Under the pieces are notes generated by a model. That model saw nothing but the letters and a program-made list of their open reading frames with translations. It made no database searches and was not told the origin of the DNA. The translations under genes and the position numbers were made by a program. Of a stretch of DNA of 64,000 nucleotides, positions 62,712 to 63,423 are shown piece after piece. This stretch comes from Bacillaceae bacterium. Lineage in GTDB: Bacteria; Bacillota; Bacilli; JACDOE01. Location of the stretch: NCBI GenBank assembly GCA_017656255.1, contig JACDOE010000012.1, positions 1-64,000 of the forward strand, written 5' to 3'. Every line of letters begins with the position of its first letter. Position 1 is the first letter of the stretch.

Positions 62712-62804
62712 GGAGGAGTACCCAAGTCTGGCTGAAGGGAGCGGTCTTGAAAACCGCCAGGGCGTTCGCGCGCCGCGGGGGTTCGAATCCCTCCTCCTCC
62801 GCCA
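62712..62804 (+). tRNA. tRNA-Ser (anticodon TGA)
   Basis: 93 bases, class II, acceptor GGAGGAG / CTCCTCC, anticodon loop TCTTGAAAA with TGA, long variable arm, T arm GGGGGTTCGAATCCCTC, encoded CCA. Its last 15 bases (62790-62804) recur at 62988-63002 and 63185-63199 as the boundaries of a tandem repeat. Confidence 0.95.
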
Positions 62805-63199
62805 TTTTTTTATGGGATGAAAAACAAAGTGAAGCTCAAGATACATACTCGGCAGGGATTCGAACCCCCTCTCCGAAAGGAGAGAGTGCGGGGTTCGTTG
62901 GAAACACGGCGAGGATAGGGCGGAGCCCGTACCGAGTCGATGTTGGATTCCGGAGCCGAGCCGTGAAACGGCGAAGGGGAAGGTATGCCTCCTCCTCCGC
63001 CATTTTTTATGGGATGAAAAACAAAGTAAAGCTCAAGATACATACTCGGCAGGGATTCGAACCCCCTCTCCGAAAGGAGAGAGTGCGGGGTTCGTTGGAA
63101 ACACGGCGAGGATAGGGCGGAGCCCGTACCGAGTCGATGTTGGATTCCGGAGCCGAGCCGTGAAACGGCGAAGGGGAAGGTATGCCTCCTCCTCCGCCA
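62790..63199. repeat. Tandem 198/197-bp units bounded by tRNA-Ser 3' ends
   Basis: Two units (62805-63002 and 63003-63199) follow tRNA-Ser. They differ by one T in a T run and one G/A (62831 against 63028). Each ends with CCTCCTCCTCCGCCA, the last 15 bases of tRNA-Ser. Within each unit lies a nested hairpin: CGAACCCC (62861-62868), inner CTCTCC-GAAA-GGAGAG (62869-62884), closing GGGGTTCG (62890-62897). AGGGATTCGAACCCCC (62854-62869) is the exact complement of 16 bases of the tRNA-Ser T arm (62777-62792). A third small hairpin GCCGT-GAA-ACGGC lies at 62960-62972. Open frames on the minus strand span the repeats but look like by-products of repeat structure, not proteins. Confidence 0.9.
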
Positions 63200-63221
63200 T
63201 TTTTTTATACCAAAAAATAAA

Positions 63222-63249
63222 GGACCCTCCATCAGCAAGGGTCCCTTTT
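63222..63249 (-). terminator. Terminator of small membrane protein gene
   Basis: GGACCCT (63222-63228) and AGGGTCC (63238-63244) pair perfectly. A T run follows on the plus strand and a T-rich tract on the minus strand (rc of 63210-63221), so it can act both ways. Confidence 0.8.
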
Positions 63250-63423
63250 TCAATCCTTATCCTGATCCTTATCCTTATCCTCATCACCCGCATATCGCTT
63301 CAAATCCGCCTCATCCTGCTTCTTCACCTCATCCATCACACGATACGCCCGGGTGGTCGCCATCACCGTCAACCCGATCACCACCACCGTAATCACGATC
63401 GAAATAAAAAGAACCATGCCCAT
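63250..63423 (-). CDS. Small single-pass membrane protein
   Basis: A 57-residue protein that is short but well supported: AAAGGAGAAC lies about 6 bases before the ATG (63423) and a terminator directly follows. Residues 3-22 form one membrane helix (MVLFISIVITVVVIGLTVMA), then a charged tail ending in a lysine/aspartate repeat (DEDKDKDQDKD). General make-up recalls the YtzI-type small membrane proteins of Bacillales, without certainty. The tail is encoded by a short repeated GATAAG stretch. Confidence 0.7.
   Translation of the reverse strand: MGMVLFISIVITVVVIGLTVMATTRAYRVMDEVKKQDEADLKRYAGDEDKDKDQDKD

Follow-up and report, generated by a model that had tools for sequence, protein, structure and literature searches.

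Tandem structured units behind tRNA genes of Bacilli have the architecture of the tRNA-linked repeats of Escherichia coli

Near the end of the window, by which we mean the whole 64,000-nucleotide stretch of contig JACDOE010000012.1 of a Bacillaceae bacterium (assembly GCA_017656255.1), a tRNA-Ser(UGA) gene is followed by two almost identical units that each end in a copy of the 3' end of that tRNA. One could ask whether such an array records the integration of a mobile element, or whether it encodes an RNA that belongs to the tRNA transcript. Genomic islands and prophages that integrate at tRNA 3' ends are likewise bordered by a direct repeat of the tRNA 3' end; in contrast to them, the units described here are only about 200 bp long, lack an integrase, contain a structured RNA core, and carry at each site the tail of the local tRNA. 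Judged from sequence, it is quite probable that they are tRNA-linked repeats (TLRs), that is, non-coding RNA that forms a tRNA 3' trailer or the spacer between the tRNAs of an operon.

Two tandem units follow tRNA-Ser(UGA)

The host gene of the array (62712-62804, detected by ARAGORN and Rfam RF00005; coordinates are those of the + strand unless stated otherwise) belongs to a small Leu-Asn-Ser tRNA cluster at the window end, which is flanked by argF and argG. Unit 1 (62805-63002, 198 nt), delimited by repeat comparison, fold, and covariation, is followed by unit 2 (63003-63199, 197 nt), which repeat comparison showed to be 99% identical to it; the direct repeats themselves measure 197 nt each (62806-63002 and 63003-63199, 99% identity). 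A core probe matched the two units and nothing else within the window, where the chance expectation is 0. A first-pass annotation had described two near-identical 198/197-bp units, each closed by the last 15 bases of the tRNA (CCTCCTCCTCCGCCA), with a GAAA-loop hairpin, 16 bases exactly complementary to the T arm, and no credible open reading frame, and our analysis agrees on every point: the units are 99% identical across 62805-63199, CCTCCTCCTCCGCCA closes both, and hairpin and complement are present in each. We found no credible open reading frame in the window units, because the lengths of 198 and 197 nt break the reading frame and the crossing frames (62747-63115 on the + strand and 62810-63253 on the - strand) traverse tRNA and non-coding DNA. 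The possibility that unit 2 is an assembly artefact, also raised in that annotation, is unlikely, since the two units differ in one base and in a T run, and three further tRNA genes of the genome carry the design as well.

Unit 1 consists, in order, of an AT-rich spacer, the T-arm complement (P1a plus P2a), a hairpin, P2b, the core helices P3 and P4, and P1b. P2b repeats the 5' half of the T arm, and P1b the tRNA 3' end. The T arm itself (62777-62792) has its 16-base exact complement at 62854-62869 and again at 63051-63066. P1a (GCAGGGAT, 62852-62859), assigned from the sequence and from the tracking test described below, has as its partner the tRNA 3' end copy within unit 1, and P2a (CGAACCCC, 62861-62868, from the fold) has as its partner P2b (GGGGTTCG, 62890-62897, from sequence and fold); the CTCTCC-GAAA-GGAGAG hairpin with its GAAA loop (62869-62884) was likewise read from the fold. 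P3 (62903-62944, covariation columns 13-60) is a core helix with a tandem G.A internal loop and double changes in 6 of 10 pairs, and P4 (62950-62983, columns 67-102) shows three pair types at one pair. The original 3' end of the tRNA (ATCCCTCCTCCTCCGCCA, 62787-62804) is copied at the end of each unit, at 62985-63002 in unit 1 (ATGCCTCCTCCTCCGCCA) and at 63182-63199 in unit 2. The copy matches ATCCCTCCTCCTCCGCCA over 18 bases with one C-to-G change (17/18), and because of this change P1a has one mismatch in the window locus.

Behind unit 2 lies a GC-rich stem-loop flanked on each side by a T run (63219-63247, no strand assigned), which is probably the end of the tRNA transcript, although the terminator scan listed it for the - strand only and at no more than the chance number. 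A weak Rfam sX4 match takes in the tRNA together with a portion of its trailer; a group I intron or another known ribozyme was rejected in view of the lack of an Rfam match.

Related units follow other tRNA genes of the same genome

A whole-genome search revealed seven close copies behind four tRNA genes, namely tRNA-Ser(UGA) twice, tRNA-Ser(GGA), and tRNA-Arg(UCU). Behind tRNA-Arg(UCU) on contig 6 there are three tandem units of 207 bp, and contig 1 carries single units behind tRNA-Ser(GGA) and behind the second tRNA-Ser(UGA), so that the main type is present in 1, 1, 2, and 3 copies at the four loci; at the C1 locus the unit lies between tRNA genes of one cluster. The cores at the different loci were 88-94% identical to that of the window unit, and the AT-rich spacers had no clear similarity between loci. 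Every close copy in this genome carried the tail of its own preceding tRNA, whether Arg or Ser, with an identity of up to 18/18 bases in the units of the other loci. One additional unit, with another core, was found by eye behind tRNA-Ser(GCU) on contig 1 (L022:2381-2510). It has the same frame, composed of the T-arm complement GCGGGATTCAGAACCCGCG, a split T arm, and the tRNA tail, and its core is recognised by neither of the two covariance models (R1 and R2) described below.

The T-arm complement can pair within the unit

All units of this genome hold the core between two partial T-arm copies, the 5' half in front of it and the 3' half, continued by the acceptor strand and CCA, behind it. The upstream complement therefore has partners inside the unit: P2 can form between the 3' part of the complement and the copied 5' half, and P1 between its 5' part and the copied 3' half. 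In the best predicted folds of the Glu unit of a related genome (G022) and of the E. coli tyrT unit, P1 closes around the P2 hairpin. This closure by the tRNA tail copy, which is also a mark of RtT RNA, was clear in the G022 Glu unit and had one mismatch in the window units. P2 in the Ser-GGA unit has a U-A pair in place of C-G. The unit folds of this genome also include competing helices.

The duplex energies of P1a with the tail of its own tRNA type summed to -147.6 kcal/mol, compared with -115.6 ± 8.0 kcal/mol for permuted labels (3 of 20,000 permutations), a frequency that serves as a guide and not as an exact probability because the units are related. P1 ranked its own tRNA first in 7 of 14 units and was weak for the G063 and G030 Arg units. 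The P1a strand facing the tail copy changes with the identity of the tRNA. The T-arm complement is best read as supplying two strands of the unit's internal fold, each paired to the copy of one T-arm half in that unit.

Covariation supports the core fold

Fifteen distinct cores and 13 pairs of P3 and P4 were used for covariation analysis. The pairs were formed in 94.9% of the cells, a percentage that leans in favour of the structure because some of these sequences had served to derive it. Cells in which both bases had changed numbered 36, compared with 10.9 ± 3.0 in shuffles (0 of 500), and only 0-3 such cells were left when the partners were slid by 1-3 columns. Changes on both sides were detected at seven of the pairs, with GC/AU/CG/GU/UG at columns 19-53, CG/UA/AU at 20-52, and CG/AU/GC at 68-101; several pair types in one column are hard to obtain without real pairing. 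Tandem G.A positions were present in both helices. The core fold is thus supported by covariation. The wobble cells of the core comprised five G-U and zero A-C, and therefore the tRNA-sense strand is the RNA. Core covariation, tRNA-sense wobbles, and the location of units inside multi-tRNA operons all support one of the readings offered in the first-pass annotation, that of a structured RNA co-transcribed with the tRNA.

Homologues are sparse in Bacilli and lie directly behind tRNA genes

R1, the covariance model of the seven close copies, found homologues in genomes G063 (Bacillales bacterium UBA6259) and G022, and R2, a core-only model holding just a few T-arm bases, added G007 and G030 together with second sites in G063 and G022. 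The 18 R2 matches with E < 1e-8, distributed over five genomes, all (18/18) lay directly behind tRNA-Ser, -Arg, or -Glu, those in the four other Bacilli genomes being located behind tRNA-Glu and tRNA-Arg(ACG). In G063, G022, and G030, units were placed between tRNA genes of one cluster. The copy numbers of G063 are lower bounds, because its contigs end inside such arrays. The annotation's own test, a search for copies elsewhere and for changes in copy number, thus left its claim standing, with one to three copies per locus and with copies in other genomes.

The family is sparse, being present in 5 of the 399 Bacilli genomes that we sampled. An arrangement of T arm, 40-70 bases, and T-arm complement was absent from all 398 of the other Bacilli genomes in the sample, and nucleotide searches of 100 same-class genomes, plasmids, and phages gave no match because the core diverges too fast. 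In a scan of genome contigs for the core pattern, only the match in Bacillales UBA6259 was genuine, and viral contigs gave no match to this pattern. The core-pattern matches in Lysobacter and Phycisphaerae were unrelated sequence without a tRNA, and the one in Planctomycetaceae had no nearby tRNA. Weak R1 or R2 matches in G380, G371, G344, G035, and G669, which are without a tRNA, were left out of the counts, as were R1 matches with E > 0.001, most of which lacked a tRNA and some of which lay within ordinary tRNA clusters. The weak R2 matches of G380, G371, and G344 (L086-L093) are 68-70 nt long, occur in several copies in two of the three genomes, and are possibly an unrelated dispersed repeat. 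A match in viral contig L062 was a T-arm-like stretch facing an oppositely oriented tRNA-Arg, with no unit.

Incomplete units were also observed. On contig 15 of G007, a decayed unit behind tRNA-Glu (L081:1501-1593) has lost the tail copy and part of the P3 pairing. A truncated relic in G022 (L085:1220-1375) lies between tRNA-Gly(GCC) and tRNA-Gly(TCC), not behind a Glu gene, and resembles the 5' part of the G007 Glu unit. One array unit of G063 (L051:1420-1491) stops after P2 and runs into tRNA-Phe.

The units share their architecture, but not their core, with E. coli TLRs

TLRs have been on record in E. coli since 1978 (Egan and Landy 1978; Rudd 1999; in PMC8144298). They number 22 at ten loci of that species, and their last 18-19 bp are identical to the 3' end of the tRNA or rRNA gene that precedes them (PMC8144298). 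Like the Bacilli units, E. coli TLRs are about 180-200 bp long, lie directly behind tRNA genes in one to five tandem copies per locus and at several loci per genome, and have a 3' end identical to that of the upstream gene. We found the Bacilli units immediately behind the gene in 18 of 18 strong matches, with a 3' identity of 17/18 in the window, of up to 18/18 elsewhere and absent from one decayed copy, and with copy numbers per locus and loci per genome within the range of TLRs. When we read the MG1655 sequence directly, one unit was located between tyrT and tyrV and three in tandem behind tyrV, and the order of the parts was that of the Bacilli units. The RtT RNA (RttR) of the E. coli tyrT operon (RF00391) is composed of P1a, GAGAA, the P2 hairpin, a copy of the T-arm 5' half, the core, and (T)AATCC with the tRNA tail, which is again the order in Bacilli, and the predicted fold of the tyrT unit is closed by P1.

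The Bacilli units differ from E. coli TLRs in that they belong to Bacillota, follow Ser, Arg, and Glu genes, and have a different core; GAGC and GUUGCC hairpins occupy the E. coli core where the Bacilli units have P3 and P4. The Rfam RtT model (RF00391), which scored 133-138 bits on the E. coli units, gave no match to the Bacilli units at E up to 1, nor up to 10, and R2 gave no RtT match better than E 0.06 in E. coli. Because the core is not detectably homologous to RtT, we do not claim common descent with E. coli TLRs, and the common design could be convergent. The Bacilli units conform to the architectural definition of TLRs and lie outside the Rfam RtT family. What is new is a Bacillota variant of the enteric TLR class with its own core; the class itself was already known, and the first-pass annotation, whose structured-RNA reading is supported, whose pairing with the tRNA is unnecessary, and whose mobile-element reading is less likely, had missed it.

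No function of TLRs was known at the time of PMC8144298. An early claim for the tyrT unit, concerning amino acid starvation, was withdrawn (PMC8144298), and we therefore dropped the stringent-response role that had first been claimed for rtT RNA. The three rRNA-operon TLRs are reported to be transcribed, processed, and bound by Hfq and CsrA, and are the only members with reported protein partners (PMC8144298). In Actinobacillus, RtT-type RNAs adjoin tRNA genes and give Northern signals (PMC4986893), and covariation and tandem G.A have been noted for RtT (PMC8250186). There has been no agreement on the function of the class since 1978, and the covariation in Bacilli provides a testable structure in a second phylum. 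The occurrence of the same frame with a different core, the compensatory changes, and a closing helix that varies with the host tRNA speak for selection on the frame itself. The Bacilli units also demonstrate that such repeats can escape Rfam and pass for integration sites.

Proposed transcription and processing, and alternative explanations

Architecture, recurrence, covariation, tRNA-sense strand, and the tracking of the tRNA by P1 are the observations that our proposal has to accommodate. We propose that the units are transcribed as a tRNA 3' trailer or as a spacer between operon tRNAs, a co-transcription suggested by their location inside multi-tRNA clusters. P1 and P2 pairing would close a compact fold around the conserved core, with P3, P4, and the tandem G.A loops. 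Since a tRNA-like 3' end with CCA closes each unit, tRNA 3' maturation would likely cut the array there, and cutting at the tails could yield RNAs of one unit length (about 197 nt), similar to E. coli RttR. Unequal recombination between the repeated tRNA tails would account for tandem copies with 98-100% identity.

The units could instead be a mini-element that uses the tRNA 3' end as its attachment site and is moved by a tyrosine recombinase acting in trans, tandem copies being repeated insertions; the first-pass annotation had suggested such mobilisation, and we judge it improbable. The direct repeats of the tRNA 3' end are what this reading expects, and in G022 the direct repeat reaches 24-36 bases past CCA, which is the expected trace of insertion with duplication but equally of tandem duplication. 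In addition, the Glu-Val slot is empty in G030 and occupied in G007, G063, and G022, and the Arg-Pro slot is empty in G007 and occupied in G030 and G063, and a Pseudomonas-like prophage contig (see below) has an array that adjoins tyrosine integrases. Occupied and empty slots in related genera show gain or loss as discrete events; a slot common to different orders favours an old element with losses over repeated gain. No integrase was detected among the genes tested in the immediate flanks in this genome, plasmids and phages lack similar DNA, and viral contigs lack a core match. Moreover, each of the Ser and Arg units has the acceptor sequence of its own site; a fixed attP could not provide this and leave the tRNA intact. 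Core covariation and G-U wobbles point to selection at the RNA level. Given that no integrase was found in the flanks and that operon slots are common to orders, we consider a structured RNA co-transcribed with the tRNA more likely than a mobile mini-element.

A neutral by-product, in which slippage duplicates tRNA tails with spacer DNA to no function, has a similarly small chance of being correct. The sparse distribution, the decayed copies (the G007 unit without a tail copy and the G022 relic between two Gly tRNAs), and the E. coli TLRs without a known function (PMC8144298) are consistent with it, yet the spacers have diverged while the cores have stayed close within the genome, and compensatory changes keep base pairs across orders. 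Very improbable, in our opinion, is an antisense device, in cis or in trans, in which the complement binds the T arm of the tRNA and governs how the tRNA folds or decays. The 16-base exact complement suggests such a device, and complementarity to the tRNA was above that of shuffles in most units, but the same bases serve the internal P1 and P2, the complementarity to the tRNA is broken in the C1 Ser-TGA unit (GGGATGAAGAACC), in the G007 Glu unit (GATTCGAAACC), and in E. coli (GGATGAGAA), and several units have a better partner than their own tRNA. The pairing of unit RNA with the tRNA considered in the first-pass annotation is not needed, since the complement pairs with the unit's own split T-arm copy.

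The co-transcribed structured RNA that we prefer could be part of a TLR class that crosses phyla, with several unrelated cores in one frame and a tail renewed from each host tRNA by an undescribed copying process. We consider this extension doubtful; renewal might occur, for example, by RNA-mediated insertion or templated repair at tRNA 3' ends.

A scan of viral contigs for a T arm with its complement revealed a tandem array behind a tRNA-Ser tail on the Pseudomonas-like prophage contig (L063:9971-10797, IMGVR_UViG_2521172693), two units of which match RF00391 with E of about 2e-8. As in the Bacilli units, tRNA-Ser tail repeats close units of about 186 bp that contain a T-arm complement and a split T arm; unlike the Bacilli units, the array has an RtT-like core and two alternating unit types, and adjoins tyrosine integrases. 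The spacers of this array are terminator-like, and the contig carries two tyrosine integrases.
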